Assembly: GCF_008831285.2 (NCBI RefSeq)
Contig: NC_045140.1
Location: 4,195,528-4,259,527 of the forward strand
Length of the DNA stretch: 64,000 nucleotides
Direction of reading: 5' to 3'
Source: Nymphaea colorata
Taxonomy: Eukaryota; Streptophyta; Magnoliopsida; Nymphaeales; Nymphaeaceae
The notes beneath the pieces were generated by a model, which was not told the origin of the DNA, did no database searches, and worked only from the letters and a program-made list of their open reading frames with translations. Below are positions 17,235-64,000 of this stretch, one piece after another (within the stretch, counting starts at the first letter, position 1; the number at the start of each line of letters is the position of its first letter). Both the position numbers and the translations under genes were made by a program.

Positions 17235-19693
17235 CTATGGCGCTGCCAGGAGCTGGGCGAACGAGGGCCTCGGCTTGAACCGGACTCTGAGTCCATTCTT
17301 CATGTAAAGGGTGGTAGTCAATTTGGGCATCACCGGATGGTCCCTATCGATGCAAACAGAGTACCTCAACAGAAGGGACGCAGTCACCATCTTCATCTGG
17401 TTGTACGCAAATTTCTTCCCCAAGCACAGCCTCGGCCCCGCGTTAAACACAGCGTACTTGAACTGGCTCTCACTCACGAACTTCCCTTCTTTGATCCACC
17501 TCTCCGGCTTGAACTCCCCACAGTCCTTTCCCCATATCGATTCCATCCTGCCCATCGAGTATATGGAATACATAATCCTCGCGCCTTTCTTTATTCTGTT
17601 CCCGTCCGGAAACACATCGTCCGCCAGTGCCTCCTTGAAGTCCATGGGAACCGAGGGGTAGAGTCTGAGAGACTCCGAGAGTGCAGCCTGCAAGTACTCC
17701 ATCTTCTTCAGTTCATTTGGTGTGAAGACTATGTTGTACTTGGTACCCACCTGGCCAAGATTGAGTGAATCTCTTTGCTTCAGAACACTGTGTATCTCAT
17801 CAAGAATTCTGGTTTCTACGTTTGGGTTTTTGTCAAGGAGCCAAAAGAACCATGCCAGTGCCACGGAGCTGGTGTCCCGGCCAGCGAGAATGAAGCTTAT
17901 ACAGAAATCCTTCAAGAATTTGTCTGTATACAGAGGATTATGGGCCTCCATGAGAACTGATAGGAGGTCGGAGCGGTGGCTGAGACCGCCGAGCTTCTTC
18001 GACTCCGTTCGTCGCGTCAACACCGTCTTTTCCGCGAATTCGTGGACTTCCTTAACTGTTTCCTTGAGCTGCTTCTCTGAGCCCACCTGAAAGTACCTCA
18101 TTGCCTTCCAGACGAAGGGCGGAACTGTGAACCTGAAATCGTGGTTACCAGTTAAGTGAAAAGAAGTTAAGTTCAATTTTTTTCTTTTGTCATTTCTCTG
18201 TCTTTTCTTCACATGTATACCCGTTCTTTGTTACTTCCCTGTTATGCTTCATAGAGCAATAAAACCTTAGAAAATGTTATTAATGCATCTCACTTTCATA
18301 AATGTATCGTCCGAATCCTATAGGTAAATTTGAAAATTTATCACAATCTGATTCACGAGAATGAAGATAAAACTTATCGAATGTTATATAGACAAAACCG
18401 TCATTTATACGCTGGTCGGACAGATTACTGCCAAATTACTAACAAGGAGGAAAAAAATGACTTTCTAGATTACTGCGAAATTACTAACAAGGAGGAAAAA
18501 AATTACTAACAACTCCAAACACATACTACCCAAGCAGATGGTGTTTCGGGCTCCAAATATACCCATCGAAAAGACAAAAAATACTTCTTTTAACCTATAA
18601 AAGGCTGAGTTAACAAATTAAAAAAATTACAAAAAATACAAAATGAAAATTCCTACAAAAAAACTTATTATGCATTTGCTGATGCTTTCTAAATGGTAGA
18701 AAACGTGGTGTGTGTGTGCGCGTGTTCCCTATCCTTCTCCCTCCTCTTTCTTTATAAAACCGACATTTTTATTTTCTTATCAAACATTTTAAAAACATTA
18801 TCCAGTGCATTATTGTTGATCGAGTAGCGTAAAAAAAAAGAAAAATGTGGACTGTGGAGTTGTTGTAGTGTTAATTAAGTAAGTACATCGAGAAAAAATA
18901 TTTTATATTCCACCTCTCTCAGTCCCAACTCTCCCCCACGGACGCGAGCGCGCACACACACGCACACACTAGGACACGCACAAAGTGGCAGAAGTTAGGA
19001 CCTGAACAAGGAGTGCTCGGTGGCATGCTCGAAGGCGCGGGCGAAGGGAACGTCCGGCAGGTCGACGGCGAGGCATCCGGGGTCGACGCCGAACGCGGCC
19101 ATGCATATATTATCGAACGTGAAGCGGAGGAACACGTCCTGGAGGTCGACACTCCGGCCGTCCATGCTCAACTTCTCGGCGAGCTTGATGAGCTTGTTGT
19201 GCGTCAGTTCCTCGATGGTCTTGGCCGAGTACTCGACAAACCTCGCCGAATGCATCTCGGCGCTGGCCGCCCTCCTTTGATCCCTCCACACCTCGTCGTC
19301 GGCGTTGAAGATGCCGTCGCCGAGCAGCTCGGAGAACCTCTCCCTGTAGTACTTCCCCTTGGGGTAGTTCTTGAAGTTGGTCTTGAGTATGTATTCTATG
19401 TTCGCCGGGTCGACTGTGACGAGACCGAAGGCACCACCCTTCCACATGCCCCTGTAAGGGAAGGATCCTCCTGCTTCAATGAGGGCGCTGGTGACGTATT
19501 CGTAGACTTCATGCATGTGACAAAGAACGGTGGGGAGGCAGCCGAGCACCGGCCACTGCATTATTCCTCTGGAGGTCATCTTGTTCTTGATAGAACTAAA
19601 AATGAAGAGGCCAAGCAGGGAGATGGCAATATCTGACAGGGTTATGCCCTTCACTGCCTTCATTAACGCTTCCATCCATGCTGCTTCTCCCAT
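17235..19693 (-). CDS. Cytochrome P450, CYP86 family (copy 1)
   Basis: Exons on the minus strand are 19693-19002 (692 nt) and 18132-17235 (898 nt), coding 529 residues. The splice TTCAG|GT ... TTTCAG|G splits Arg231 in phase 2 and keeps the frame. Seen in the protein: an N-terminal membrane anchor (about 19-34), WPVLG hinge (47-51), C-helix WxxxR (136-140), FTFDNIC (191-197), FGVDPGCL (201-208), I-helix AGRDTS (314-319), ESLR (384-387), PERW (440-443) and the haem loop FNAGPRLCLG (460-469) with Cys467. Motifs YPSVP, SMGRMESIWGKD and KLTTTLYMKNG match plant CYP86B fatty-acid omega-hydroxylases as recalled. Such enzymes act at the endoplasmic reticulum and hydroxylate the terminal carbon of long or very-long-chain fatty acids for suberin. 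The ATG at 19693 is chosen because the TATA-like box lies upstream of it and the anchor follows directly. All motifs are intact. Subfamily and substrate are inferred. Confidence 0.93.
18133..19001 (-). other. Intron of P450 copy 1
   Basis: 869 bp, donor AG|GTCCTAAC and acceptor GATTTCAG|GTTC on the minus strand. Close to the donor it holds a CA/GT-rich microsatellite (about 18949-18971). It is the longest of the three paralogous introns. Confidence 0.88.
18423..18505. repeat. Two-copy tandem repeat of about 45 bp in the intron
   Basis: The unit beginning 'gattactgccaaattact' and running through 'aacaaggaggaaaaaaa' occurs at 18423 and again at 18468 with one substitution over most of the unit. 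Copies 2 and 3 show no equivalent, so the duplication is private to this intron. Confidence 0.8.
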
Positions 19694-19783
19694 GGCGAGA
19701 TGCAGTACTCTGTGTGACACAGTGGTAGATGGTTTTTCTTTCCTTTCTTGGAGGTTGCATTTGAAAACGCTGCACGCTTGCCG

Positions 19784-19790
19784 ATAAATA
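19784..19790 (-). promoter_or_regulatory. TATA-like box of P450 copy 1
   Basis: TATTTAT on the minus strand inside the word CTCTCTATTTATCGGC, about 93 nt before the start codon. The same word lies about 80 nt before the ATGs of copies 2 and 3, so it is conserved while neighbouring bases differ. Function as a core promoter is inferred. Confidence 0.6.
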
Positions 19791-19799
19791 GAGAGGGAG

Positions 19800-20690
19800 C
19801 TCAACTGTTTCTTTGACTAGATTTTATGTAATTAGCTGAAAAATAAGCGGTTCATCCTCCAAATTAAAGTTGATATGGGGCCCTCCTCATGTCCCCAAAC
19901 CTCAATTCGATTCTTGGTGTTAGAATTACGGTTGAGAGTTACCACACTCGGTGAATGGGTTTCGCTTGGCCCCCACCCTCTCCATATCTCTTTTTCTCTC
20001 TCTAACCGATTAGGTTGGGTTCCTCATTTGACTCTTCACTTACACTATCCTAACAGCATTGAGGAAGTTAAATTGGGGTTGAAGGTTACTGTTGAAGGTA
20101 ACTAAGTTATCTTGGATTTGTTTTATTTATCTTTTTTTTTTATGGAAAGCAAGTTTTGTATATTGTTTCTTGTATACAACGACAGTAGGCCGGATGTAGA
20201 CCCTGTTATCTGTTTACTTTCACGCCCAAACAAACAAATAGATTTGTAAATTAGTTTTATTCTCCCATTTAGTTTATATATATATATATATATATATATG
20301 TTAGAGACATCGAATCAAAAAATTTGATTCAGCAAAAGAATTATTTTCTAAATTGTTTTGTCAAGACAGTCAAATCAACAATTTTCTTTTGGCAGAAGAA
20401 TTATTTCCGAATTAATTCGTCAAAGACTGTTGGCTGATCAGGAATCGAAATAAAGACTCTCCAAAATGGCTAAAAGAGCTTGGCAGTATGCTCGCTTCCT
20501 GTGGTCTCCTTTTGTTATCTTTAAAATGAGAGAGGCCAAAATATTTTTTTGGAGATGTTCGCTTTTGCTGGTGATGGAGTGATAATGTTTGTTTACTGGT
20601 ATTGATTTGCTTGTCCAGCTGTGCGCAGAACCCTCGAGCACGAACCGTTTGCTTTTTCTTGTTTGCAAGAAATTGATCTTACAAATCTGC
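19800..20690 (-). promoter_or_regulatory. Upstream region of P450 copy 1
   Basis: Contains words shared with the upstream regions of copies 2 and 3 and with the orphan fragments near 29.2 and 60.5 kb: 'tttgactagattttatgtaa', 'aaagttgatatgggg', 'gactgttggctgatcagga', 'aaataaagact' and 'aaaatggcta'. A block with 'aattttcttttggcagaaga' occurs twice in variant form (20330-20360 and 20380-20410). It is the probable promoter and the left part of the duplicated intergenic unit. No specific factor site is claimed. Confidence 0.55.
20276..20300. repeat. Short (TA)n microsatellite
   Basis: About 12 TA dinucleotides in the upstream region of P450 copy 1. Confidence 0.9.
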
Positions 20691-21115
20691 CGACAAAAAT
20701 TTTGACGCTCTGACTTGTCTTTATATGGCTCTCAATTATGGAGATCAATAGGCATTGGTGAGCTCATTTAGGGGGGTGTTTGACAACCTCTGATTGAGAT
20801 CCATCGCTGATTTGAAATCTCTTTTAAATGCGTCCACATGATAAACAAACATTGAATAATTGTTAGATCTATAAAAAAATGAGGATTTGAGATCTTTAAT
20901 ATTTGACCAAAACTTCAGATTTGAGGTCCGATGGGAGGGAATTTGACCTCTAATCCTTGAATCTAAGATTCTTAATGATCTCAAATCGGCTTGTGGTTGA
21001 AACCGGAGGCTATCAAACACACCTTAGACGTGTACATTGGTCGCTGCAATTCATTAGTGTGACCTGCCATTATGATCTGGTCTTCAGAAAAATATCACCA
21101 CCAGGGTTTTGCCAC
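20690..21115. repeat. Unit-1 copy of duplicated intergenic segment a
   Basis: Pairs with 37525-37735: both hold 'ctaccgacaaa' or 'ctgccgacaaa', 'atatggctctcaattatgga' or the close 'gtatggctttccattatgga', and 'ggttttgccacctt'. Unit 1 has additional sequence at about 20760-21040. Non-coding. Confidence 0.6.
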
Positions 21116-21895
21116 CTTAGGCAGTTCAGGTACTGAACTTAATTCAACCCGTAATAAATAGAAAGAAAAATAACTTAGAATTGCACACTTTGAGTATGGA
21201 CCTCTTGATTTTCTTTCCAGCTCAAAAGCCAGAATGTTCTTGGTAAGGCATCCTGGAATGTCCATTGACGACTATGAAATGCTATCAATGTTTCGATTTT
21301 ATTTGAATAACGATGAATCCTCTTAGAACTAGCAAGATCATTTAGGCTTGCTTCGACATGTTTAAATTATCAGTGAACCCCGTGTAGTCCCTTGCCAATT
21401 ATGAGCATAATACCATGAGAATCTATTGCTTAATACCAATTCATGCATCACAATGGGGTCTTTTTCTTTTATGACGAACACTAACAAAAGCGATCAACCT
21501 TTTAATGGTGCAAAGTAACATCAGTAATGAGAGCCAAAAAGGTTAATAAGAAAGTTTTTCGGATGAGTGGGGTTTGACTCACCACCCGAAGAAGGCCGAA
21601 ACCCCAACCCAACCCGTCATTCTGATCATGCAACTACTGCCACACCACAAAGCGTTAATGAGTATAATACCACTAAAAGATTACTGATGAAACGTGCATG
21701 CATCAGTGAAGTGCACTGTTACTGTTATAAGTCTTCGATGTGCTTGCCAAATTAAGCTTGTAAGTCTTCATGCCAACGTTTGCAACTTATTTTCAAGAAA
21801 GTATTGCCCTTCTCTCTAGAACCCATCAACAACCGTAGTCTTCATGTTGTTATTCTCTAAAATAACTTCGTAATCTAAAAAATTAAATCAGCAAG
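21116..21895. other. Intergenic DNA, no gene recognised
   Basis: No domain-bearing frame. The part nearest 21.9 kb may extend the copia relic, but nothing confirms it. Confidence 0.35.
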
Positions 21896-21899
21896 TAGG

Positions 21900-22255
21900 T
21901 TCTCTTGGACAATGTTTAACCAATATGAAGTTGATGGAAATGCCAGGCTAGGACATAGGAACCTAAACGTAGGTGTTTTGGTGTTGAAAGAAGCGCGCTG
22001 CAACGTCCTTTAATTGGAATCTTAGTGTGGTTAGTAGTCCTAATATGCACTCTGCAATATTTCTCTTTAAAATCAACTAATACTTCTACCTTATGCAAAA
22101 TTATATGCTCATTAGTACCAGAATCAATGACGCTTAGACTAAAACTGAGGAACTCGCCCTTATTGTGTATGATGGCACAGTTGATAGTAAAGGCAAGTTT
22201 CAGAACCTTCTTCTTTTTCTCGTAAGAGTGAGTTGTGCCTGCCATTAGGTGCACA
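21900..22255 (-). pseudogene. Copia protease-region relic
   Basis: The minus-strand frame contains VIDSGTNEHI, like the IDSGA(T/N)EHI protease site of copia polyproteins, followed after about 15 residues by a stretch resembling the 'HTIPIKG ... L.VL' region, and it ends YVLAWHFHQLHIG where copia has a YVP.F..NLISV-type stretch. Only this part of pol remains and no LTR was recognised. The relic lies just before the start of the large duplicated block and is not in the unit-2 copy. Confidence 0.5.
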
Positions 22256-24365
22256 CAAATCATATAGTCAAAATAAAAGGAGGTACATTTTGTAATTAAA
22301 AAAGAATGTCATTTTTAATCCTTTCATTTTTTTTATTTCCTTTTTTGTCCTCACAAATTTTTTTTCCATTAACCAGGAGTATTTTATTCATTAGCCATAC
22401 TGGCACATGAAAAATTTGTACACCAGTATGACGTACATAACCAGCTTTGAGTTCTCATTGCCAACTGCGCGTTTGACTTTCTTTGAATCATATAGTAGAT
22501 GGCGTTGTAGGATGGCTGTGTTGGAGACTAATTATTTGGCATAGTATCTTCATATATAGTCTTCATTAATTTATCGAATGGTTAAATTAACTTGTCCCGC
22601 ATGCCTCAAAGAGTTCTTCCTATGAGTTGAAGGGCCTAGCTCCTTTCTTCAATTGAATTATTCTTTGTTGGAGTTGATAAATGCAGATTATGTAGTTTTG
22701 GTGGCCTTATACTTCATGTAGGGATTTCCACATTGCTTTGAGGTTTCTATAAAGTGTAAATTCTCTACAAAATTCAGGTTTCACGGAGTTTAATGGCCAC
22801 AACATAATGAATTCATCGTTCGATCTCTATTGTTATTTAGGGTTGGTGTCTTTGGGAGTGGTCTTCTAACCATTAACATACTTGGTTTTTCCTTTAAGAA
22901 GAAGTGAACATGAGGTTGGGCTCTCACACTACCATCTTAGTCTTCACAGAGACTTCATTGCTAGACCGAGATTGGTCTAGCATGACGATATCCATAAACA
23001 CACACCATACTCAAAACCTTAATAACGTATAGTGACAGTGAAGGAATGAGGAAAAAGAGCAGTCAACTTCACGTGTTTCAGTTGATCCAAACTACATCCA
23101 TGACAAACCAACGTAGAATGCTTTGATATTCAATGGTTCCTCCAGTTTATAATTGCATGCATGTTCCCTTTTATGAAAGATAGAAAGAATCTGATTAGCA
23201 TAAGAGATAACAACAACAGATATTAGGAAGGTTTTCCTTGATGGGTCATGAGTAGGAGAAGATGTGGTTTACATTTTGTAGAGATTCTGCCAGATCTGGA
23301 TGGTGAAGTAAGCTACTTTCCTCTTAATGTCGGAAAAAAATGATTGATAGAAAAATGTTTTGGCCTACATAAATTTATGTGTAAAGATTCTGAAACTTCA
23401 GTGCCAACTGAAAATTTACAAAAGCACATTCATAACGCGTGATACATAAGATGCAAAACTTTTAGAGTTTTTTCTACAAATGCGTGAATGGTATTGTATG
23501 GATCTGGTATCTCTCCATGTAATCGAACATGCCACAAGAGATGTTCCTTGAATGAATGCAAAAACATCAAGTCGGATAATCTTTCATTTCTAATGTGCAT
23601 TTAGCTTGATGTATATACACTTAAATATGGGCGCTTCTCAGCTTGAACTTGTTATCAAGATCCTTGAATGGAGTATGGGCCCAATGTGCCAAGTTTTCCA
23701 AATGAATTGGTCAAAATAAATAGAAATGTGAAGTGGGTGTTGTCTCCAAAGTGTACTTGAGCTTCATTGAATGATTTTTCACCATTGATGATGGAATCCA
23801 AGTCTCAAGGGCAGGTATAATCTTTAATAATTTGTTTAAATGGGTCGTCTCTAATAGGTCTTAAATCTCTCCTTTACTAATTTTTGCAACCTTATCTAGT
23901 TTATGGGCATTTGTTATACAGTAAGAACTGCAATGGATACTTCCTCCCATATGTTATAAGGTGTTTTCTCCCTTTTTTCAATATATACTTGACCTACCCT
24001 TTTTTTCCTTGTGATTTAATTTATTATAATGTCAAAGAAAAAGTGTGCATTGTTCAGTTTGCCCTTGGAAGCAGTGGTGGAGCCAAACATGTTTAGCTGA
24101 GACCAGGGATGGAACTAGGAATTTTTTTTTATTGGGGAAGCCGAAATATAGTTCCAATTTTTTTGATAAGGGCTGGAATATAATTTTTTTTAAAATTTTT
24201 ATATAAACTAAATGAAAATTTTTTGAAATTACATGTAATTTTTTTTTTTGCTTTTTTCAAAAATTTGAGTCGAGGCCATGGCCTCTGCTGGCACCCTCTT
24301 GGCTTTGCCCCTAGCTGAAGGGCACTTACTATATATTTGAGGGGCATTTTATATCAAAATATGCA
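22250..24365. repeat. Unit-1 copy of duplicated intergenic segment b
   Basis: Collinear with 40525-42165 with many small indels. Shared landmarks include 'ctttgaatcatatagtagat', 'ggcgttgtaggatggctgtg', 'gatacataagatgcaaaa', 'tatgggcatttgttatacag', 'gctggcaccctcttggcttt' and 'ttgcccctagctgaagggca'. Unit 1 has about 400 bp near 22.93-23.43 kb that is reduced in unit 2. No gene is seen; short frames such as 23884-24096 are conserved only because the DNA is duplicated. Confidence 0.85.
22310..22445. repeat. Dispersed 'TTTTTGTCCT...GGCACATGAAA' repeat
   Basis: A T-rich stretch with 'tttttgtcct', then 'cattaaccaggagtatttt', then 'actggcacatgaaaaatt'. Related stretches occur at 37345-37450, 38695-38810, 40600-40700 and 63760-63880. 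It looks like a short dispersed family whose ends are not defined. Confidence 0.45.
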
Positions 24366-24504
24366 AAAATTTGGGGTTAACCAATATGTAAATAAGGAAA
24401 TTTTATTTGACTGTGCTTGCCCACACAAGCACACATGTAGCTCCACCTCTGCCGGGATGTGCACCAATAGGCCCTTTGCACGTTCATATATAAGTTAATA
24501 CTCC

Positions 24505-24905
24505 TTTTAACTTAGAATTTAAAGCTTGGAAAAACTTAAACCTTCCAATAAAGTAGGAAGAACTATTTTTTTTGCCAATTTATCTTCACAGAACAACAAA
24601 AACTTAATCCCGCCATTATTGATGAGATCTCCCCTCAGCTTCTTTCATTAATTAGAGAATGAAATAAATGGGTCAAACAGATGGAGTGCATGTACTTTTC
24701 AAACAACATAAAACACATTTTGCAACACATAATGACTACACATGGTACTGAGCTGCTAATTAGCCATGGTTAAAGTAGCAAGAGAATGGACTTGATTAAC
24801 AGGTGCAAACGACAAAGATGAATTTGACAACTTGCAGCTACAGGGACAGTTTGAAAGGGTTCATTTTTGCCTTAAGTGGAGGATGAATTAAACCAAATAA
24901 AAAAA
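24505..24905. repeat. Unit-1 copy of duplicated segment c (out of order in unit 2)
   Basis: Matches 39720-40105: 'agaatttaaagcttggaaaa', 'gccaatttatcttca', 'agagaatgaaataaatgg', 'acataaaacacatttt', and 'aaagatgaatttgac' against 'aaagatggatttatc'. In unit 1 it follows segment b; in unit 2 it precedes segment b. Non-coding. Confidence 0.7.
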
Positions 24906-25169
24906 ACTAATTAAATAACTAAACTCTAACAACCCAAAAAAGAAAGAAATTCAAATTGAAAATCTGTTCGCTTCACGTTTCTTGAGGAAGTGCAAAGATA
25001 GGCAGCTAAACAATGTAATTGCATGAAAAATGTATAATATATACTATACCTCTTAGTAATATATTAGAAAGAGAGAATGCATAAATACGGTCACATAATA
25101 ATGTGCTTGTAGCTCACCTACCTATATGAACTCATTATAAACTATTAGGAACTTGAAAGAGACGTAAGT

Positions 25170-25393
25170 GGTATATAGATATGAAGTTAATTTCTTGGAA
25201 TTAATAGCCCAACCACATCCTTTGCATAATTGCCTCGATTGAATGTGCAGATATGGGTCTGGTGGATCAATCATCTTCTTGATTAGCTTCACATTCCTGT
25301 TCGATAACTCATCAAATTCATGAAAGGCCATCAAGGTGGTAAAAATATTCTCAAGGATTTTTCAATTGACTTGGCTTTCTTTCTTTCTTTTTT

Positions 25394-25449
<56 letters not shown>

Positions 25450-25740
25450 CATAGTCATAATATTCTGTAAATTAGTTGAATCCAGGATAAACTCTGGGTC
25501 ACATCATGAAGCAAATCGTTTCGAGACGCTTCTAAAATATCGTTGTAGTTGCCGACCTTCTTTATGTAAATAAAGCAACGTCCTGTAAATTAGTTGAATC
25601 CAATAGACTCAATAAGTTGCTCTTAAGCATATGATTTAACTGGGATAGTCAACTCTTATGACTATCACTTCTGGCACGAGATGAATAGGATTAGACAGAG
25701 TTGTGTGCAACGTTCTATGCACCCAACATACATACACGCA
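25170..25740. repeat. Unit-1 copy of duplicated intergenic segment d
   Basis: Collinear with 42170-42615 through 'tagatatgaagtta', 'ccacatcctttgcataattg', 'gtggatcaatcatcttcttg' and 'ttaagcatatgatttaact'. Unit 1 has a poly-T expansion and about 115 extra bp, bordered by a repeat of 'ctgtaaattagttgaatcca' at 25466 and 25581. Confidence 0.8.
25395..25446. repeat. Poly-T tract of about 52 bases
   Basis: An unbroken T run. The duplicated counterpart near 42430 has only a short T run, so the tract expanded after the duplication, or it is partly a sequencing or assembly artefact. Confidence 0.9.
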
Positions 25741-25904
25741 TGGGTAGAGGGAGGGGGGCCCGCTTGAGCCGTAGCTCGGATGAGCACAGAAATTTTTTTT
25801 TACATTGAAAAAATCAAATTTTTTTAGTTTGGCCCTGCCTATCGCTCCTTTTGTCCCGACCCATAGATTTGTTTGGCCCGCCCCTTAAAAAAATCCTTGC
25901 TCCA

Positions 25905-26284
25905 CAAATAAAAGAAGGAAACGTTTTTAAAATTATGAGAAAATAAATGTTCTTTTAAGTTTTTTTTTGTCTATTTCTTCTTTTGTCCTTACAAAAAGTT
26001 TCTTCTTTCTATTTAAATAGAGACATTTTCGTCATTAACAGTGCTGCAAAAAATTTCTTCTTTCTATTTAATTGGAGACATTTTCGTCATTAACAGTGCT
26101 GGCTTTAGACTAAATTTCATGCCCAGCTCGGCGTGCATAACCTCCGATATATGCACGAACATGACAAAGCAGTGGCAGAGCCACGTTGTAGCTGGTGTAG
26201 GCAGTTACCCACTAAATCTATTTTATTTTGAAACTTTTCATGAAATGTTAATTTTTTTACATAGGAGCGCCCCTTCAAATTTAA
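25905..26284. repeat. Unit-1 copy of duplicated intergenic segment e
   Basis: Matches 42615-42885: 'gaaacgtttttaaaatt', 'cttcttttgtccttacaaaa', 'agcagtggcagagccacgtt', 'gttacccactaaatctattt', 'cataggagcgcccctt'. Unit 1 also repeats 'tttcttctttctattta' and 'gagacattttcgtcattaac' (26000 and 26060), a local duplication of about 60 bp. Confidence 0.8.
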
Positions 26285-27048
26285 ACTTAAATGCCCTAGG
26301 GCATCGGGTGGGGCCAGGCTAGCCCGGCCCATTAAAAAATCCAAAGATGAGCCCAATTACTGTATTGGGCCAGCCCGATACCCGGCCTGTTAAAAATCGG
26401 GCCGGTTCAGGTCGATAATTAATCGGGCCCGGCCCGGCCCGATTGGCCAGCCTGAGTGGTTTCCCTTCTCTTTCTTCCTCCTTTCCTCGCATTTTTTCGC
26501 CAGTTCGCCTTTTGTGCATCTCTTCGCCTTCTGTGCAGCAGAAGAAGAAGATAATAGAAAGAAGAAGAAAAACCTTATGTGGCCGGAATCTTAACGCTTC
26601 CTGTTACTGAGCGCGAGTTCCAAATCCTCCAGACCGACCTCTTCTCCACATTCATCGTGTATCCTCTCCCCTTCCCACTGCTTCACCCTTCCACACTCAA
26701 ACTGGAAATCGCCTCCAACACCATCACCAGTGGCGAGACAGGGAGATCTTCTGCGATGGCTGCGACGGTGGCTGGGGGCTCAGAGGCAGCGAGCAGGACG
26801 ATGGCCGACGGTGACGGTGAGCTTCGATGGGCGACGACACAAGCCCTAATTTGATAAAAAGGTGTTTTGTTGTCGGGCTTTTCGGGCCTCGACGGGCAGA
26901 GATCCAAACCCGAGCCCAGCCCATTAGAGTTCCGCGCCGGGTTGGGCCCGATGAAAAAAAGCCCAAAATCGTTTTTTATTACCCGAGCCCGGGCCAGTTG
27001 GGCGCGTACTGGGTACTCGGCGGTGGCTCGGCCCGGTGCTCAGGCTTA
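26285..27048. mobile_element. GC-rich insertion, probable non-autonomous DNA element
   Basis: Unit 2 lacks this stretch: there 'aaacttagagtggcc' runs directly into 'ttaactaaaaattttt', while unit 1 holds about 760 bp between the same words. Both ends are GC-rich and partly inverted relative to each other (left 'aggctagcccggccc', right 'ggctcggcccggtgct'). The interior (about 26450-26860) is atypically GC-rich with (GAA)n and CTTC stretches and resembles a plant gene 5' region. An open frame at 26579-26854 has no known domain. It may carry a captured gene fragment. Class is inferred from the GGGCC-rich ends. Confidence 0.55.
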
Positions 27049-27877
27049 TCCTTAACTAAAAATTTTTAGCTCTATTACCCAGTAATTAATGTTATGGTGA
27101 TGACTGCAAATCTGCAATTGTCATTAAAAGTTTAGACAGGCCCATGTGCGCGTGCCTCAGTTTAGTAATACCTTGTTCAATAGGTAGAAACTTTACAATT
27201 AATTCAATAGTACTTTGATCAATCTATATGCATTGTAGGTTGTGACTAATAGTCTTCTACCTTCTTTTTTTGGTAAGTTGCCATTATGGAAAAATTCTTG
27301 GTAGTTCACGAGAGGTAAGACCATCCCCATCCTCTTGGCCCCTAGGTATATGACTGCTTCATAACTTGAGCACTAATTTACAGTACACCCTTTAATCTGA
27401 ACATCGCGCAACCACCATCTCCAGTCCAAAAAAAAAAAGCTTACTCCAAAATCAAACAGAGGGCTTGTTGTCAATGCAACCCTGGGCCGACCAGCTATGT
27501 TACCTCTCTTGAAGCCATTGTGGACAAGTTCCTGAATGGTTAGATACTAAAAGTAATCACAGTTGGTCTTGGTATCCATGTGTTAGCTAATATTTTTTTT
27601 ATAGCTAACCCGTCCCATATAACTATATAATGAACTCAACTCAAATGTAGGGGCTATTTCACAGTATGACCCAAGGAAGGATTGCTTCTACATTCAACAT
27701 TTGCCACCATAGTACATTTTCGCTTATACTAAAACTGCATAAAAAGCTGTATCCAGCTAAGTTAATGTTCCATGAAGGTCAAGTAATTATATAGAAAGAC
27801 AAATGTAGTCTTCTATAAAAAGAGACCATTTTAAAAGGGCCTACTGAACTTCTGTGTCAGAAATCTATGTCGGTCCT
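27049..27877. repeat. Unit-1 copy of duplicated segment f, with the empty gypsy site
   Basis: Collinear with 42893-44031: 'aatgttatggtgatgactgc', 'agacaggcccatgtgcgcgt', 'cagagggcttgttg', 'ggtcttggtatccat', 'atgttccatgaaggtcaa', 'gacaaatgtagtcttctata'. Unit 2 carries an extra insertion at 43561-43847. The words 'gtcggtcctattacagtac' near 27870-27888 are uninterrupted here and are split by the gypsy element in unit 2. Confidence 0.85.
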
Positions 27878-29100: not shown

Positions 29101-29103
29101 CCC

Positions 29104-29394
29104 TGCCGCTAAATAGAGAGAACGCCTCTTTAGTTGACTAGAGTTTTTGTAAATAGTTGGAAACATATCAATGCATTACCAGTCCAAATTAACTTACGGG
29201 GCCCTTAATGTACGCTTCTTTTTCTTCGAATTATGGTAGAGAAAGAGTCAAATCAAAATTTTCTTTTGGGAGATGAATTATGTTGTAATTTAGTCTATCA
29301 AGACTGTTGGCTGATCAGGATTGAGAATAATCAAGATTTTTGAGAGATGTTCACTGTTGTTGGTTAGGGTTTATGTGATTAGTTGGAAAGACAA
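29104..29394 (-). promoter_or_regulatory. Orphan P450-promoter fragment, unit 1
   Basis: Starts with 'ctgccgctaaatagagag', the equivalent of the TATA-containing word before the three P450 genes, and continues with 'ttgactagagtttttgtaaa', 'agttggaaacatatcaatgc', 'aaattttcttttgggagatg' and 'gactgttggctgatcagga'. These match the region upstream of copy 3 (63411-63630). No P450 exon lies to its left, where exon 1 should be. A second fragment ('tttatgtgattagttgga', 29369) begins and is cut off at the copia junction. Confidence 0.65.
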
Positions 29395-29399
29395 CGGAA

Positions 29400-36276: not shown

Positions 36277-36279
36277 GAG

Positions 36280-49023: not shown

Positions 49024-49039
49024 ATTCCCTCATTGGATA

Positions 49040-49524: not shown

Positions 49525-49526
49525 TC

Positions 49527-52088: not shown

Positions 52089-52271
52089 CCCATTGACCTG
52101 AACGACAATGTAAAAAGCATTTTCATGGAAATATTCTCATTTTGAGAGGTCTTTTTCTGAGAAGGTAGTTGACTGATTTTTAAAAGCTTGAACCGAGTCT
52201 CCCTCAACCATACGCTCTTCCAAGGGGAGAACATCCAAAGAGCATGGATCTTCATCTGATGATTCAGCGCC

Positions 52272-54154
52272 TTATAAGATAAAAGTCTTCGGAATCATAC
52301 GAAGTTTCTTGGATGAACTTTCTGTCATGCCATTCATCATAGCAATGAAATTCAGAGGTTCTTTACCTTGGTCTGCCACCATGGCTTTGTGTGAACCGCT
52401 TCCAATATAAGGTTGAATGTGCTCTTGTGGATGATACGAAAGTGGAGTGCCTATAGGGATCATGGCCACTGCCGCCTTTTTGTGGTCAAGGAATAGATTC
52501 CTTAGTATCTCGGGGGTGCTATCATCACAAATCTTGAGATCCTTGTTGATAAAGTCTTGAATAATATTTTTGAAGACAAAACAATCCTCAGTGTCATCAC
52601 CAGGGGCACGATGAAACTTGCACAACTTTTCTTTATTTCCTCCCATTATTTTCGGAGGCTCTGGTACTTTTGGCAAGACAATAGTGCCTTTGGCGAGAAT
52701 GTATTCCAGGATCATCTCAAGAGACTGGTTGAGAGGAGTGAATTATTGGTCATAGCCTCAGCCTGAGTGTTTGTTCTTTCTTTCATCATCACTTTTGGGG
52801 AACTCTTCTTGTCAGTGACTTCTTTGTCCTGCTTATAGCTATTGTCATGGTCCTTTCTAATGTCAGCATTGGCTATAAAGTGTACAGGCAATAGTGTCCT
52901 TCCTCATTTCTTTCCATCTTCTTTATACTTAGAAGTCATAATTCCATCGAAATTTTCTTCCTCAATTCCTTCTTCTATTGAGTTGGCTTGTTCAATCAAC
53001 TCAGCAAAGGTTTTGATCGGGGCATTGTGGATGAGACTTTTCAAGGGTTGGACAAGATTTTTCCTGATGAGTGACAAGACTTGTGTCTTGGAAATGAGCT
53101 TCTTCATCTTATTGCATTGAATTCTCTATTTTTGGATGAATTCTCGAGTCTTTTCTCCGTGTTTCTAACGAGACTGCAAATGGTACTGATGGATAGAGCC
53201 ATAGGAGCATTTTGCTTTAATCTTTCGACAAACATGTTAATCAATTTGTCAAATTCCTTTAGCTCGATTGGGTTGACATTTTCTTTGTATCAATGTGTGG
53301 CGATGCCTTCAAGACTTCTTGGAAAATATTGAAACAAAGCTCTATTATTTGTCCGAATATTATAGCAATCATTGAAAAAGGTTGAAAGATGAACGTGTGG
53401 GCAAGTGGTTCGATCATATCTAATGAATTCTCTCTGCAAGTCTTTCACGTCTTCGTCCCTTTCAATGCCAAGGTAGCAGTCCTCACATAAGTATGAACGT
53501 TTTTTCTTTCCCCTAAGCTCAAGGTTGTTCATTCTTTTCTCCATTTCATAGAATCTGTGCTTACTCAAACTTTCATCATCATTTGATTTGACCAATTTTG
53601 GCTTGGTCTTTTTCTTCTTGCTCTTGATCTCCTTTACTTTCTCTTCAGAACTCTTACTGTTCGAGCTACTGTTGGGGATGTACTTCTTGGTCTTTTTGTC
53701 TTACTTGGTTGGCTTTCTCTTCCTTTTGAGCTTCTCTTCCGGTGATAGGGCTAGGTGAGCATCTTTCTATCATAATTTTTTTTTTCCTTTTTCCTTTTCT
53801 TTGTTGTCTTTTTCTTCTTGAGAGGAAGCAATTCGGGGGTTTTTCTTCCTTACTAATTGTCGAATCTGAACTCAAATAATCTTCATCCTTATCTATAGGG
53901 GATGACTTGTTCTTCTTCTTCTTTCTTTTCTACTTGGCAGTCTTTTCATTCTCTGGTTCTGCAGTAACCATCAAGGTCTTTTGCTCTTCTTGCTCCCTCA
54001 TGAATCGCTCCATGAACAAACGGAACATATGATAACTTTCTGGCTCGATTGCTGGGAGGCCAAGTGTTTCTAGCTGGAGTTCAGAAGATGATGACTCATT
54101 CTGAGGAGCCTGCTTAGCTTGTGATCTAGTTTCAACCATCTTGTTGGCTTTCAA
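52272..54154 (-). pseudogene. Gag of the Tat/Ogre element (broken)
   Basis: Starts MKANKMVETRSQAKQ with a following Glu-rich region, then RDEDVKDLQREF and NRALFQYFPRSLEGIA. A later stretch reads CKFHRAPGDDTEDCFVFK, the CxFHxxxGHxTxxC type zinc motif of Tat gags, with the His in GH changed to Asp. At least four stops or shifts split it. Confidence 0.8.
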
Positions 54155-54446
54155 GTATTCACCTTATGACACAAGAAAATAGAGTTATTGAACAAAAATA
54201 ATGACAAAATGAAGGTTCATATCACATTAAAAGTTTCAAAGTTACACCAAAGAAAACACCAACAAAGATGATGATGACTGAAGACGACATAAGGAGTACA
54301 AAGTTTGACAATATAAACTTTTTAGGGAATGATGGATGGTAGTCGATTGGCATCCTATCACTCGGCATATTCCTTCTTTACCACTGGGTCTGCAAACCAA
54401 GTGTAAGATATCTGTACCTTTCATTCTTGTCGGGCTACTGCAAACA

Positions 54447-55535
54447 CTACCACCCATTGAGGAGAACTGAGGTCGAATTCAGGAATTGCTCCAACTGGTG
54501 TATGCATGGAAACCATCTTTTCCTTTGAGAGAACTGTCTCATGCATCTATCAACACAATAATCAATTATGAAATAGAGGCCCAAGAGTGTAGTACGCCTA
54601 TGAGGATGGTGAGTGTAATAAGGTGGGCCCTGACGACAGACACAATAGTCCCAAATGATCTCATTTCCATCTAACTGCTCAATCAAACGGTGGTGTTGTT
54701 CTAGAATTGTCAATGCTCCATCAGTGTTTCTGAATAGGCTGGCTTGGGGTCTCGCATGCTTTAGAAACCACAATTGCAAATTATATGTGCATCCTTCTAT
54801 GAAGTCAATATCTCCAACGGTTTAATGGTGAGTCCTTGGTAAAGGAAGGCTAAGGTTGTCATTGCTACTGACAAGTGTCGGGTCCCACTATGCCCCCAAA
54901 CCCAAAAAAATTGGGCAATACGAACATCTAGGAGGTCAGTTCCATTGGTGAAAAGGGTCACTCCTACTGTGCAAAACATCATGCAATGTTTAATTCTTCT
55001 TATGACTTTCTGAGGTAAAGTGGAAGGTTCAACAAAGGCTCCAAATTCTTCATACAAATTTTTCAGGTTGATGCTTTGGTTTTCATTGTTTTCTACTAAA
55101 GGCCAAGTTTTTCATCAAGTAAAGTCAGCAATGAGGTCATTCACATTGACCTTGGTTGGTTCATAAGGAATTGTTTTTCTAATAAATCATTTGGGTTACA
55201 AGTTAGGGTAGGAAGGTCTAATATTTCGGCAAATTCATCTAGTAATATTGTCATTTCTCCTCATAAAAACTAAAAAGAGGAGGTTCTTGGGTTCCAACGC
55301 TCGGTGATTGCATGTACCAAATTTCCATCAACTGACAGCATTCCTACAGCTGCCACTATCTCTAGCCCACATTCTTCAAAGTAAGGACACATTCGAGAGA
55401 ATGTGGGATGCCAAAACCGATACCATTCAGGAGCCAAAGGTTTAGACTCAAGAGAGATGTAAGTGGACCGTTCGAGTCCTTCCCAAGGAGGATATGATCA
55501 TAAGGGAATGTGACGTCACGTTGAAAAGAATACAT
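54447..55535 (-). pseudogene. ORF1 with plant-mobile-domain-like region
   Basis: Upstream of gag on the minus strand. One frame reads FWHPTFSRMCPYFEECGLEI, then ITERWNPRTSSF and GEMTILLDEFAEILDLP. This follows the ERW.P.T.(T/S)F...GE.(T/I)..L.D.A..LGLP pattern of the plant mobile domain, which is known in some Ogre-type ORF1 products. Later fragments (IAQFFWVWGHSGTRHLSVA and the 110-codon frame ending at 54447) may be its C-terminal part. Function is unknown. Broken by several stops. Confidence 0.7.
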
Positions 55536-56299
55536 CTTTAATTATGACTCTAAAGGATGAATATTGAATTAGTAAAAAGTTTGACTAGATTGACCAAGAC
55601 AACCTGAGGTAGAGATATGCATGAGGTTGTAAAACATCACACAAGGTTTTATGCATATCCATATGTCGTCTGAAATAATTTTCGTAGAAAATGAATATGG
55701 GTACCTAATTGAGATAATTTTGTGTCACGATGGTCCAATGTCAAGTTATGCTTATATACCTTAGTCAAATGGCTTAGTACTAGCATAGATTCTACTTTAG
55801 GCAAGTAAGAGTAAGGTTCATCAACTTCTTCTTAATCGCTCATTGATATACCACAAATTACCACTCTTGGTACTAACGAGGGGGCTTTCCCGCCCAAGGT
55901 GTGTCTAGTTGTAAGGTTTAGTCTTGTACTACCACCTAAGACCAAGCCGACAACACGATGACCGGGACAAATAGATATAAGGAATTATGAAATATGAGAA
56001 ATCATGCAAAGTCTCTAATACAATGTTGCCTAAGATGATGATTATAATAAATAGAAGAGCGAACATTGTCTTCAAACAACTCTTAAATTGAGAACGGTTA
56101 TATTTGATCCTAGATCTAAGTGAACATGATTGATCCTTCTCAATTAGTCTTATATGCAAGAAATCAAATACAATCACCAAGAAATGTAATGAAACGCCAA
56201 TGGGGTTAAAGGCTAAAGTAGGGACATGCTTTATCATTGGCAATAGAGGATATTCAAGTTATTGGAAAATGCATCAATTATAATCATAGACAAACGATG
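55536..56299 (-). other. Leader between LTR and ORF1 of the Tat/Ogre element
   Basis: No coding domain recognised. Position between primer site and ORF1 matches the untranslated leader of such elements. Confidence 0.55.
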
Positions 56300-56323
56300 A
56301 CGGGTCCCATCACGGTCGCAATC
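56300..56323 (-). promoter_or_regulatory. Possible primer-binding site of the Tat/Ogre element
   Basis: Directly after the 5' LTR the minus strand reads GATTGCGACCGTGATGGGAC. As recalled, Ogre-type elements have a tRNA-Arg-like site resembling TGGCGACTCCGCTGGGGAC. The match is partial, so it is a decayed site or a different primer. Confidence 0.45.
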
Positions 56324-58564
56324 TATTTGCATCCCAAAATTTTCATTGGTTTTGGAGTGCTCCAAAAAATTGAGTTTTGTTTTGAAATAAGAAAGGAAAG
56401 GGACTCGCCCGTCAGTACAAGGATTGATCATTCCTGGTGCCTTCACCGGGAGTAATCAATCCAAAAGCTATGTTAATCATTGATGCATTTTATTTTAACT
56501 TAAATATCATTTTGATTCTATATGCAGTGTAGAAAATATTGAAAGTTTGATATTTCAAACTTTTGAGAATATTCTTGAAGAGTTGCTTGAAAATGTGAAA
56601 TGTTTTGAGGAAAAAGTAGAATTAGTAAATATAATTTGAAAAACTTGTGAAATCATTTTGAAACAACTTTAGGGTTTTCTTAAGACTTTAAGTAGGTTTG
56701 AGATTTTGCTTTAATTCGGTTACCACTTAGTTATTACTTCATCTCATCTTGCTTAAGTTCTTTTGTATATGTGCTTATGATAATAAGTGAAATAAAGTGG
56801 GTGAGAATGCATAGTTGCATTTATCCTATATGATTGAAAGAATGTAAAACATTCCTACCACAACATTCATCTAAGGTCATTCCTACCACAACATACATAT
56901 AAGATTTTGTTGCTATAATTATGGTATATAAGAATGAAAAGTTTTTGAAAAATGATAAAAATTGTAGACCATAAAACATGATTCTAATATTGGGTCATTA
57001 CTTGGTTTGTGGTATTAATGAAGTTGGTAAATAGAAAGATCGTGAGAGGAGAATGTTAAAAGAATGTAAGTGATAAAACAATCTTATGAACAGAATGTGA
57101 GAGAGATAAAGAAAGACATGCATATATGTGTACATACCATCACATATACACATATATGAAAGTTTAAGAGAAAAAAATGTATTAATTTGAAGAGAAAAAG
57201 ACATGTTTTAGAGGAAAAGAAAAATATATGTACGTATATATGGATATGTATAAGAAATTTTGTAAGTGGACATATTTGTCTTCAAAAGAGGAAATAGAGC
57301 ACATATGCATACACATTCATGCATATATGAAAATTCATAAAATGGAAAGTGAAAGCACAGAGAGAGAAAGATGGGGGGATCATCATGTGTGCATGGATAT
57401 ATATGTATATACATACGTGCCTTCACAAGATTATAAATCAATAAATAACTTAAGATTACCAACTTCAAGTTTAATGTAGGCTGGATGGGAGTTTGGACCC
57501 ATGCAAGAGTCTAAGCTAAGTCCCTAAGACCGTATTAAGAGGTTAGTTTTGAAAATGTTTTGAAAACTATGATTTATAAATAAACATAGAATGTTAATAC
57601 TTAGTTGTTATAAAGGATATATTTATTTCACTGTTGGGTATAAAAGAAAACAAACAATATAACGAGGCACTCATTAGGGTTCCTCAATACAAACAACTTG
57701 AAAGGAGAGCATGATATAACTATGAAATGAAGGATCATCTCATCTTTCCATGCTTCTGGTGCACTTGAGCATAGCCTCTTGTCTCTAGGAAGAGTCTGAG
57801 TGCTATCTCTTTTGGCCATGTGGAGATAAAGATGAGAAGAAAATGAAGAAAGGAAGATAACACTACGTTCAATAAAAGAGAAAACATGATTCAATCATGA
57901 AATAAAAGATTATCTCATCTTTTCATGCTCCCAGTACACTTGAGCATAGCCTCTTGTCTCTAAAAAAGAGGTTGAAGGTTATCTCATTTGGCTATGAAGA
58001 GATGAAGATGAGAGGAGAAAATGAAAACAACAACAAGACTATATTCAAGAAAAAGAAATAGCAAGAACATATTAATGAAGAGAAAGAACAATAACAACAA
58101 GAATACTTGAAAGAACATTATTTAATCATAAAATCAAATATCATCTAATCTTCTCATGCTTCTGGTGCACTTGAGCATAGCTTATTGTCTCTAAAAATAG
58201 CTTATTGTCTCTAAAAAGATGTTGAGTGTTACTATGTTCAAGAAAAATAAATAACATAATAATAATAACATATTAATGAAGAGAAAGAATAACAACAACT
58301 TGAAAGAGAGAAATGAGAGATGATGATTACATACCTCTAATGAGAAATGACCTAAGAAAGATCAACACCTTCACTTGAAGATCCCCTTTAAGTGAAGCTC
58401 CAAGATGATGCTTCCAAGAGGGTTGTAGCTAGCTTTAAGTTGGAGAGAAAAATGGAGAGAGGAAAAAAGAGAGATAGAGAGCTCAAGAGAAACTTAAGTC
58501 TTGAAGTATGAATATACAGAGTTTCTCTCAAGGGTTAATCTTGCCCAAGAGGGGAGAAGTGGAT

Positions 58565-58577
58565 GGTATTTATAGAG
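58565..58577 (-). promoter_or_regulatory. TATA box in the 5' LTR
   Basis: CTCTATAAATACC on the minus strand, identical to the box in the other LTR. Confidence 0.65.
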
Positions 58578-58734
58578 GATTTTGAAGCTAAAACCCAAAT
58601 TTGAATTTTTTTTTTTAATTTCACCCTATTTTCATCCGAATTTCACATAAATTTGAATTATTTTGAAAAAAAAATGGTTTGAAAATGTGTGTGAATAGCT
58701 ACTAGGCTTATAAATTTCTTTTTAAATGACTTGG

Positions 58735-59095
58735 GCATTTGTCCACTTAAAAGACTAAAATCTTCCTCTAAAAGGAAGTTTTTTTGTCAAAAGGAGGGAC
58801 AAATGGGTCTTACTCACTAAAAATATCAAAATCGTCTTTTAAAAGAAGGTTCCTTATAAAAATGAAAGGCAAATGGGTCTTAACCACCAAAAAAACCAAA
58901 ATCACCTTATAAAAGGAGGTTCTTTGTTAAAACGAATGGCAAATAGGTCTTGCCCACCAAAAAGACCAAAATCACCTTTTAAAATGAGGTTTTTTTTTAT
59001 CAAAATGAAGGGCAAATGAGTCTTGTTCACCAAAAAGACCAAAATTGCTTTCTAAAGTGAGGTTTTTTTTGTCAAAATGAGGGGCAAATAGGTCT
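58735..59095. repeat. Array of about 65-70-bp units in the 5' LTR
   Basis: Five diverged units with 'accaaaaagaccaaaat' and 'ggcaaatgggtctt', paired with the array at 46925-47225 of the other LTR. Confidence 0.8.
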
Positions 59096-59175
59096 GAAAT
59101 ACTTGATTTGGATTTGAACTTGGATTTTGGATCAACGAGTTAGATTTTGGGCTTGAAAAAATTTGGGGTGATACA

Positions 59176-60180
59176 GTCCTATTACAGTACTTCAAGATTT
59201 GGAAGAATTTACAGCCTCAAAGGTTACGGCTGGTTTTAGCCGCAGCATTCCTATGGCCTCTCATAGCATGCACCTTGGTATAATGCATTCCATCTTGACA
59301 GTAGAAGGAATCTGCACCATTCAAGTAAATGGTGACTCTAGCTATCCATAATTACTATGACATCTAACAATGACGTTTATCTAATGCATATGGATGGTTG
59401 AGAGAAAAACATGAAAGAAAAAAAGATAGGAACTAATATTACATGAAGAAAACGTCCATCATCATTTTCTCCTTGTTTTTCTCTTAACCGTTCATCATGC
59501 TAAATTGGACAGTCCTGGTTAAATGGTTGGGTGATTCTAAAACAAATAGATGAATACCCATTACATTTTTCTCTTAACCTTCTATCATGTTAGATTGGAT
59601 CGCCTTTGTTAGTCGGTTAGGTAACTCTAAAAAAATAGAATCACCATTCAATCTATATATGTATATATATCGCATTTATTCAGGCTACCAAATAATAATA
59701 TAATATCACCCAGTCATTTTCTTTTTATTGTTTCATTCTCAACTAATAATTCATTTATTCATAGATAATTTAAATCTATCAATATTAGAACATTTGAAGC
59801 AAGTGTCACCAAATTGATCTTGGTGACTCTGCGTGTACCAACTTACATTGGGAAGTCGACATCTCTATTTCAAATTGATTATTCGGAACCCAACAAAGAA
59901 TCAAGATTTTTAATATGCATAATCCTGCATATTTTCACTTTCCTTTCCCCCTTTGATGTAAGAAAACAAAAACTTTCAGCCATTTGTTGTCCATGGGCTT
60001 CTAGTTTGATTTTGCAATTGATTTTGCAATTTACGTTGGTTGATTGACAGTACGTCTGTCTCTTCACCTACCTGTTTGTTACCCTTTAACATTAAGCCTT
60101 GTTTGATTGAGTAGAGAGTAGATGAACGTCAGAGCCGAACTCAACTTCATTTAAAGGAAGGCTGAAGGTTCTTTAGTTGA
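59176..60180. repeat. Duplicated segment g, unit-2 copy
   Basis: Begins with the right target duplication GTCCT, then follows unit 1 from 27877. Non-coding. Confidence 0.85.
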
Positions 60181-60182
60181 CT

Positions 60183-60655
60183 AAATAGAGAGAAAGTGAA
60201 GCCTCTTTAGTTTACTAGAGTTTCTGTGAATAGTTGGAAACATGTCAATGCATTACCAGTCCAAATTAACTTATGGGGCCCTTATTGTACGCTTCTTTTT
60301 CTTTATGGTAGAGAAAGAGTCAAATCAAAATTTTCTTTTGGGAGATGAATTATGTTGTAATTTAGTCTATCAAGATTGTTGGCTGATCAGGAATGAGAAA
60401 AATCAAGTTTTTTCAGAGTTGTTCACTGTTGTTGGCTAGAGTTTATGTGATTAGTTGGACAGACAAACAGGGCAACGCGTTCATTGTCCACACTAAAGTT
60501 GATATGGGCGCTTATTGCGTGCTTCTCTCGTCCCCAAAATCTCTCTCTCTATCTCTCTCTCCCCGAAGAATTATTTTTCATCTGATTTATCAAGACTGTT
60601 GGCTGATGAGGAATCTAAATCAAGATACCAACGTGGCTAAGATTTTTTGGTGAAC
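60183..60655 (-). promoter_or_regulatory. Two orphan P450-promoter fragments, unit 2
   Basis: Fragment one (about 60183-60410) begins 'ctaaatagagagaaagtgaa' and continues 'agttggaaacatgtcaatgc' and 'ttttgggagatgaattatgt', as before P450 copies 2 and 3. Fragment two (about 60425-60655) holds 'agagtttatgtgattagttg', 'aaagttgatatggg', 'gaagaattatttttca' and 'gactgttggctgatga', closer to the upstream region of copy 1. No P450 coding sequence adjoins either. Confidence 0.65.
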
Positions 60656-61110
60656 AGCTACTTGAGAAAATATGGAGAGAGTTGATTTCATGGGAATTAG
60701 CAATGGTGGTGAAGAATATCTGTTGTCATAGGAGACTAGAACGCTCTTAGATGGCCCCGTGACAAAACGGGTAAGCACAAGATCGAATGCCGAAACTTGC
60801 TATGGTCGATCTTGCTAGATTCTCAAGTGAAGATGAGTTATTTGTTGTTGATGATCCGACCATTCTTAAGCGAAGATGAATTATTAGTTGTTGATGATAG
60901 AGTTTCCAAATGACGTAAAGTTTTCAAATGATGCAAATCTGGTGGTCACATCTAGTGATACGCTTCTATTCATGAGCCTAAAATCGTGAAGCCTAAAATC
61001 GTGCTACCAAATGAGAAAGTAAAGCATCAACTTTGCAATGCATCACCAATAGGTAATGAAACATGTAACTGATCTCTCAAACGATAAGAAAGAGTTTACA
61101 GAGACCGTGG
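60656..61110. other. Intergenic DNA between orphan promoters and P450 copy 3
   Basis: No gene recognised. The counterpart in unit 1 was removed by the deletion at the 5' end of copia element 2. It has an internal repeat of 'agatgaattattagttgttg' type words near 60840 and 60880. Confidence 0.45.
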
Positions 61111-61275
61111 ACATAGGTTTTAACAAATCAACCACGTTCAGATTTATTTCTTGTGTTGTCTTCCTTTTATTTAACAAATAAGAGAAGCAGCAACAAGAAG
61201 TTCGGATACATGATTCCACAACTTAGCAATCAGGCATGCTTTTCATGTTGAGTTTTTACGTCATCAGTAACTGGA

Positions 61276-63333: not shown

Positions 63334-63412
63334 TGCCAGCAAGCAGTTTGTGAGCAGATGCTTTTGCTTTCGCTTGGTGGTGCTTGCACTCAAAAATCTG
63401 CAGACTCTGCCG

Positions 63413-63419
63413 ATAAATA
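63413..63419 (-). promoter_or_regulatory. TATA-like box of P450 copy 3
   Basis: TATTTAT on the minus strand, 80 nt before the ATG, same context as in copy 2. Confidence 0.6.
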
Positions 63420-63421
63420 GA

Positions 63422-63650
63422 GAGGAAGTGAAAGAGATCGAGCACACCTGTTTTGTTGACTAGAGTTTATGTGATTAGTTGGAAACAGGTCAATGCCGAT
63501 AAATTATTGGGCCCTTACTGTACACTCCGCCTCTTTCTTTGAGTGATGCTACAGACAGAGTCAAAACAAAATTTTCTTTATGGGAGATGAATTATTTTGT
63601 AATTTGATCCATCTGATCAGCAATCGAAATAAAGACTAAAAAATGGCTAC
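63422..63650 (-). promoter_or_regulatory. Proximal upstream region of P450 copy 3
   Basis: Matches the upstream region of copy 2 and the orphan fragments at 29.1 and 60.2 kb. Landmarks are 'gttgactagagtttatgtga', 'taaattattgggccc' and 'gggagatgaattattttgta'. Confidence 0.6.
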
Positions 63651-63679
63651 CTTTTGCGCTCTTATAGGACGCCCCCACC

Positions 63680-64000
63680 AGCTGATCATTGGCAGTTGGC
63701 TGGCGCCGACCCAAAAAGAAAACAAGATAGGGGTTAAGATATTTTGGAAATTATCTAAAAAAAATATTTGTTTTAGTTTTTTAATTTTTTTAGGTTTTTT
63801 TTTGTTCCTACAAAAGGTTTTTTTAATTAATCAATGGGCATTTTTATTGTCATATTGGCGCACGAAAATTTCTTAAAAGTTTACTATTATTGATTTGCTT
63901 GTGTCTGTGTGGAGAACCCTTCAGCAAGGGTGCTTTGTGCTTTTTCTTGATGATCAATAACTTGATTTTTTAAACTACCGACAAATTTTTCAAAACTTTT
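63680..64000. repeat. Duplicated segment a, start of unit-3 intergenic DNA
   Basis: Collinear with 37251-37570 to the window edge, including 'cgcacgaaaatttc' and 'gcaagggtgctttt'. The duplicated unit therefore continues beyond the window. Confidence 0.8.

Follow-up and report, generated by a model that had tools for sequence, protein, structure and literature searches.

How did a cluster of plant cytochrome P450 (P450) genes in Nymphaea colorata grow, and which non-coding DNA was copied with each gene? The locus lies in a stretch of 64,000 nucleotides, referred to here as the window (assembly GCF_008831285.2, contig NC_045140.1, positions 4,195,528 to 4,259,527 of the forward strand). Three P450 genes, all on the minus strand, occupy positions 19693-17235 (gene 1), 36190-33847 (gene 2) and 63333-61276 (gene 3), and are separated by two spacers, I1 and I2. 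A sequence-only reading of the window had proposed that a single process copied each gene together with its upstream DNA. How far genes, introns and spacers have diverged makes a different history highly probable: the plant-type tandem array of P450 genes arose in two or more steps, the recent unit being a gene with its downstream DNA.

Divergence of genes and spacers

Synonymous and nonsynonymous divergence (dS and dN) were estimated by the method of Nei and Gojobori (NG86), with that of Yang and Nielsen (YN00) as a second estimate, and non-coding distance (K) was calculated as the Kimura two-parameter distance (K2P). Gene 1 is far from both other genes, with a dS of 0.476 to gene 2 (YN00 0.516) and 0.467 to gene 3 (YN00 0.490), and genes 2 and 3 are separated by a dS of 0.101 (YN00 0.090). 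At four-fold degenerate sites, genes 1 and 2 differ at 64 of 186 positions and genes 2 and 3 at 12 of 208. The non-coding parts of genes 2 and 3 (3' flank, intron and 5' flank) give a K2P of 0.107 (0.087-0.127, n=1165), and their introns align with each other at K 0.153. Intron 1, searched alone, matched neither intron 2 nor intron 3 at E<1e-3, and its forced alignment reached 52% identity. On these distances gene 1 can be regarded as an old paralogue and genes 2 and 3 as recent sisters. At least two rounds of duplication of clearly different age are needed (dS 0.47-0.48 against 0.10), so that a single duplication process does not account for the array.

The spacers add the second half of the comparison. 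I1 occupies 22248-29394, and I2 consists of a left part (40515-44027) and a right part (59176-60466) on either side of a gypsy-type element. In a self-comparison of the window, in which matches of at least 60 bp at E<1e-5 were counted and small matches between P450 5'-flank pieces were set aside, 11 collinear same-strand blocks join I1 to I2, with a pooled K2P of 0.101 (0.092-0.112, n=4295). Twelve matches were counted between 22248-29394 and 37.6-60.5 kb, the remaining one lying off the diagonal (24649-24894 with 39873-40086, 66%). Comparison of 20700-29394 with 37600-60466 minus the gypsy element likewise returned 12 matches, with 4,715 bp of query sequence covered; of these, 10 lie on the diagonal (one across the gypsy site), one lies off it and one is an overlapping low-identity match. 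Markov-resampled queries gave no match in 20 of 20 controls, and the left flank of the array (10408-17234) gave none to I1 and one of 64 bp to I2. The collinear diagonals that the sequence-only reading had expected between the intergenic blocks are therefore present, and the outcome it had named as contrary, scattered short repeats only, was not seen in this self-comparison. Same-strand collinear similarity extends well past the genes, through 11 blocks, the gene and its flanks, which identifies a tandem segmental duplication.

The two sets of distances together give the phase of the duplicated unit. A unit of gene plus upstream DNA requires the neutral divergence of genes 1 and 2 to equal that of I1 and I2, and the values are 0.476 (dS) and 0.101. 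Since I1 and I2 have diverged about as much as genes 2 and 3, and genes 1 and 2 far more, the recent unit would be a spacer and the gene to its right, I1 with gene 2 and I2 with gene 3. As all three genes run leftward, the spacer copied with a gene would lie on that gene's downstream side. Pooled divergence is even across this unit, at 0.101 for the spacers and 0.107 for the non-coding parts of the genes, with single blocks ranging from 0.031 to 0.153. The proposal that a large unit of gene and non-coding DNA was duplicated thus stands, and its phase, with the DNA upstream of the gene, does not (dS 0.48 for genes 1 and 2 against 0.10 for the spacers).

Edges, content and probable history of the recent unit

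The left edge of the recent similarity is sharp. At 22248/40515 identity is 82% on the right, and no same-strand match was found in the approximately 350 bp compared on the left. At the other end, pieces of the gene 2 5' flank, which with the right end of unit A occupies 36191-40514, match the gene 3 5' flank (63334-64000) up to the window edge, including 37253-37559 with 63680-64000 at K 0.087. The sharp left edge and a flank match running to the end of the window define a unit A from 22248 to about 40514 and a unit B from 40515, the presumed tandem junction, to a point past the window. A short tandem repeat with an offset of about 83 bp is found at 38278-38594, to the right of gene 2 and to the left of this junction.

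The 5' flank of gene 1 (19694-22247) has only old, weak similarity to the flanks of genes 2 and 3, in short pieces of 66-81%, and its 3' flank has a weak match of about 140 bp (65%, exon end included). Such weak similarity on both sides fits an older event. Between 20480-22247 and 36480-40514 no match was found at E<1e-5 with default words, and 7-base words recovered only two short pieces, of 69% and 81%. The sequence-only reading had noted that both of its units measure about 12 kb once transposons are removed. This arithmetic is right for the units as it drew them; much of that length is without a match, both in these two stretches and in seven segments found in I1 only. The agreement in length is partly coincidence, as the two stretches share only two short pieces. 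Within the gene 1 5' flank (19789-20480) part of the promoter module is also repeated internally, and two module parts that lie within about 60 bp of each other in gene 3 are separated here by about 450 bp.

Each spacer ends on its right in a P450 5'-flank module without a gene body: relic A (29109-29394, minus strand) in I1 and relic B (60181-60466) in I2. A profile built from five modules was searched over the window at E<0.01 and gave nine matches, namely the five source modules, a further one within the gene 1 module (20298-20367) and three elsewhere. The latter are a second orphan module of unit B on the minus strand (60426-60641, nhmmer E=1.4e-19), a match at 19789-19936 (E=2.4e-9) and a weak one at 29352-29393 (E=0.001), a possible second module of unit A that starts at 29352 and is cut at about 29394. 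A tblastn search of the three proteins over the window found three genes only and no P450 body left of the relics, apart from 19 residues of the gene 2 tail that match directly behind gene 3. Relics A and B differ by 0.039 (n=184) and the modules of genes 2 and 3 by 0.042 (n=148), with 0.205-0.222 between the relics and genes 2 and 3. Because the first two distances are alike and the third is larger, relic and gene were probably already adjacent and copied together in the recent step, as judged from these module comparisons.

The orphan modules are probably traces of a lost P450 copy. It is doubtful that they are instead kept regulatory sequence which, copied downstream of a gene, could act on neighbouring genes. 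The wider block of relics A and B has a K of 0.059 (0.033-0.087) and the 5' flank of the live genes 2 and 3 one of 0.058, both below the 0.101 of the spacers; against conservation by function, three other short blocks of I1 and I2 are equally little diverged (0.047-0.057).

The spacers differ by insertion and by local gains or losses, as had been proposed. The 15,148-bp gypsy-type element at 44028-59175 (minus strand) lies in I2, and I1 holds the empty site, in line with the earlier claim of a 15.1-kb insertion into the second unit. It is assigned to its class by its long terminal repeat (LTR) pairs (approximately 44034-47292 and 56326-59172) and by reverse transcriptase (RT) and RNaseH followed by integrase (rve) along the minus strand, with pol in several open pieces. 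Its LTR divergence is 0.106 over 1,151 sites; as this is close to the divergence of the duplication, the element probably inserted soon after it. The LTRs are partly tandem-repetitive, with offsets of about 71 and 174 bp (45481-46483, 46927-47215, 57696-58197 and 58739-59095), and the copy number of these repeats seems to differ between the two LTRs. The seven segments of I1 that are absent from I2 measure 121-798 bp. Transposon insertion was considered as the source of the indels between I1 and I2; among 10 indel segments checked for flanking repeats, the best repeats were of 3-5 bases and none was clean, and the segments may be insertions or deletions. The I1-only segments were also considered as introns of a hidden gene, a candidate that was rejected: their junctions have no consistent GT-AG, and no Pfam cut-off was reached in 10 open reading frames (ORFs), which comprised six of the 11 I1 ORFs and one of the two I2 ORFs that reach 80 aa, one across the left edge at 22.2 kb and two in the gene 2 flank. 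Two of the 10 gave sub-threshold Pfam matches (Pol_BBD, E=0.028; DUF5510, E=0.08).

The copia-type DNA of unit A is a different case. Decayed pol fragments at approximately 29.6-33.3 kb, Pol_BBD among them, lie in a plus-strand block found in unit A only (29395-33735). The copia order of integrase before RT is seen in an rve match that is weak and falls short of the Pfam cut-off (E=2.2e-5) and an SH3-like domain, with the RT/RNaseH side identified by similarity to another copia element further left. An LTR pair was looked for and none was found, and nothing in 29395-33735 matches the interval from relic to gene in unit B (60467-61118). On both counts the block reads as a remnant, neither a complete element nor the clean insertion into a shared site that had been proposed. 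The element further left (5175-10407) is structurally complete, with gag, zinc knuckle, integrase and RT in Pfam and a frame broken into several pieces; its LTRs are approximately 97% identical (K 0.027-0.034), and it is much younger than the P450 duplication and lies outside it.

A history in two steps would account for these features. In the older step (dS approximately 0.47), a P450 gene and at least part of its 5' flank would have been duplicated to give the gene 1 lineage and the lineage of genes 2 and 3, together with one or more additional copies that would now be represented by 5'-flank pieces only. In the recent step (K approximately 0.10), a segment of spacer, relic modules, gene and 5' flank would have been copied in tandem to give unit A with gene 2 and unit B, reaching beyond 64000, with gene 3. 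The copied unit would comprise the gene, its downstream DNA and some kb of 5' flank, about 14 kb when the copia-bearing block of unit A is left out. The route would have been unequal exchange or end-joining, and the lack of similarity to the left of 22248/40515 tends to favour a non-homologous breakpoint. Afterwards the gypsy element would have inserted into I2, the DNA from relic to gene would have come to differ, with the copia-bearing block in unit A, and indels would have accrued. The sequence-only reading had looked for a fourth gene further right; the re-phased unit requires none to the right of 64000 and predicts only about 3 kb more of similarity there.

Alternative explanations

Several observations weigh against the two-step history. 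The tandem junction is placed from one side, as unit B continues past the right edge of the window. The alignment of exon 1 between genes 1 and 2 extends about 150 bp into the intron (18850-19001), so that intron 1 is partly alike. Divergence is uneven, from 0.031 (exon 2) to 0.153 (intron) among the blocks of genes 2 and 3 and from 0.047 to 0.146 among those of the spacers. The 12 differences at 208 four-fold sites of genes 2 and 3 are fewer than the non-coding value would give, and they are rarer in exon 2 (4 of 114) than in exon 1 (8 of 94). For these two reasons genes 2 and 3 may have exchanged some sequence in exon 2, though the signal in the aligned sites is weak. The short module core (66-85 sites) is less clear than the whole modules, with 0.130 between genes 2 and 3 and 0.132 between relic B and gene 2 (66-67 sites). 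With LTRs as diverged as the duplication itself, the later insertion of the gypsy element rests on the empty site in I1, and its target duplication is imperfect by eye (GCTCT/GTCCT), with three matching bases in an automatic look.

The unit of gene plus upstream DNA could be rescued if one process had made the array and genes 2 and 3, as well as I1 and I2, had later been homogenised by conversion or unequal exchange. To the eye, alternating genes and spacers are compatible with both phases, the old weak 5'-flank similarity of genes 1 to 3 shows that the old unit included some upstream DNA, and variation in divergence from block to block is what exchange could produce. Such a history is nevertheless unlikely, as it must explain a dS of 0.48 between genes 1 and 2, with introns that have no match of their own, beside spacers at 0.10; it needs two separate homogenised tracts that share one level of divergence by coincidence; the similarity ends sharply at 22248/40515; and the coding sites hold no conversion tract with gene 1. 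An assembly artefact, in which the two haplotypes of a single locus were joined end to end as units A and B, is less probable still, given about 10% non-coding divergence, a 15-kb gypsy element with about 10% LTR divergence, and a different sequence between relic and gene. Divergence of this size is far above the usual allelic difference. The least credible explanation is chance or dispersed repeats, with the same transposon family inserted independently near each gene. The window is rich in LTR elements and weak scattered matches do exist (39733-40086 with 24509-24894), but the eleven blocks keep one order and strand and end in 5'-flank relics of the gene family, the resampled controls were empty, and none of the ORFs scanned in I1 (six of 11) and I2 (one of two) matched a Pfam family.

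The P450 genes and comparison with a known array

Gene 1 consists of exon 1 (19693-19002), an intron of 869 bp (19001-18133) and exon 2 (18132-17235), and encodes 529 aa in an intact ORF. Gene 3 likewise encodes 529 aa in an intact ORF, with exon 1 at 63333-62642, an intron of 468 bp (62641-62174) and exon 2 at 62173-61276. Gene 2 (exon 1, 36190-35499; intron of 709 bp, 35498-34790; exon 2, 34789-33847) encodes 544 aa, a 1-bp frameshift past the haem motif (33847-33916) having turned its last residues into a longer tail; the remaining frame is open. All three introns were set at AG/GT donors and AG/G acceptors. Gene 1, the one gene scanned, matches PF00067 in Pfam (E=3e-65), and genes 2 and 3 align to it over their whole length. 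All three genes have the I-helix, ExxR and haem motifs, and AGRDTSS, ESLR, PERW and FNAGPRLCLG stand at identical residue positions in each. Among solved structures, the best matches are LUTEIN DEFICIENT 5 (E=4.5e-40), carotene epsilon-monooxygenase and CYP4B1. For gene 1, NCBIfam returned four bacterial P450 names, all far under their cut-offs. A literature text search with the motif strings found no paper, and neither Rfam (gathering threshold) nor a tRNA scan gave a match. We take the motif pattern, as a lead only, to be that of the CYP86 clan, CYP86B in particular, whose members are presumably fatty-acid omega-hydroxylases. By convention, membership in CYP86 requires at least 40% identity to named members.

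Site patterns over the first 522 codons, with codons from 523 on excluded owing to the gene 2 frameshift, group genes 2 and 3 at 171 sites, genes 1 and 2 at 29 and genes 1 and 3 at 30, with three bases at 5 sites. These patterns show no cluster in 90-base windows, and gene conversion with gene 1 was rejected for want of a tract. The dN/dS ratio is 0.38 for genes 2 and 3 (YN00 0.44) and 0.17-0.18 for pairs with gene 1 (YN00 0.15-0.16). Counted site by site, with one codon of two changes entered in each count and read once as a stop that is absent from the gene, single-site differences that change an amino acid number 19 on gene 2 and 16 on gene 3, and silent ones 11 and 13. The higher ratio and these counts suggest relaxed or altered constraint after the duplication, as opposed to loss.

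The closest parallel is the flavonoid 3',5'-hydroxylase (F3'5'H) array on grapevine chromosome 6. There, tandem gene duplication came first, followed by copying of large, mostly repetitive blocks with one or two genes; identities of 90-99% are common to seven of nine blocks, intron divergence follows block divergence, later gypsy and copia insertions altered the blocks, and gene fragments persist (PMC3091711). The Nymphaea array resembles it in early gene-level duplication, subsequent copying of repeat-rich blocks and later transposon insertion. It differs in size, with three genes and two units in view as opposed to 15 genes and nine blocks of 35-55 kb, and in its gypsy element, found in one unit only, whereas one gypsy element is described in grapevine as common to seven blocks and predating their duplication (PMC3091711). 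The enzymes differ as well, a flavonoid hydroxylase in grapevine (PMC3091711) and here another P450, which we take to be CYP86-like. The locus is an ordinary tandem array of plant-type P450 genes that closely resembles the grapevine one, and the process itself is already known from there (PMC3091711).

A tandem unit is easily mis-phased from gene and spacer order alone, as alternating genes and spacers fit two phases, and the phase is decided only when gene, intron and spacer divergence are set side by side. Read in this way, the array would illustrate, in two tiers, how P450 clusters of plants expand as whole blocks are copied and come to differ as retrotransposons insert.

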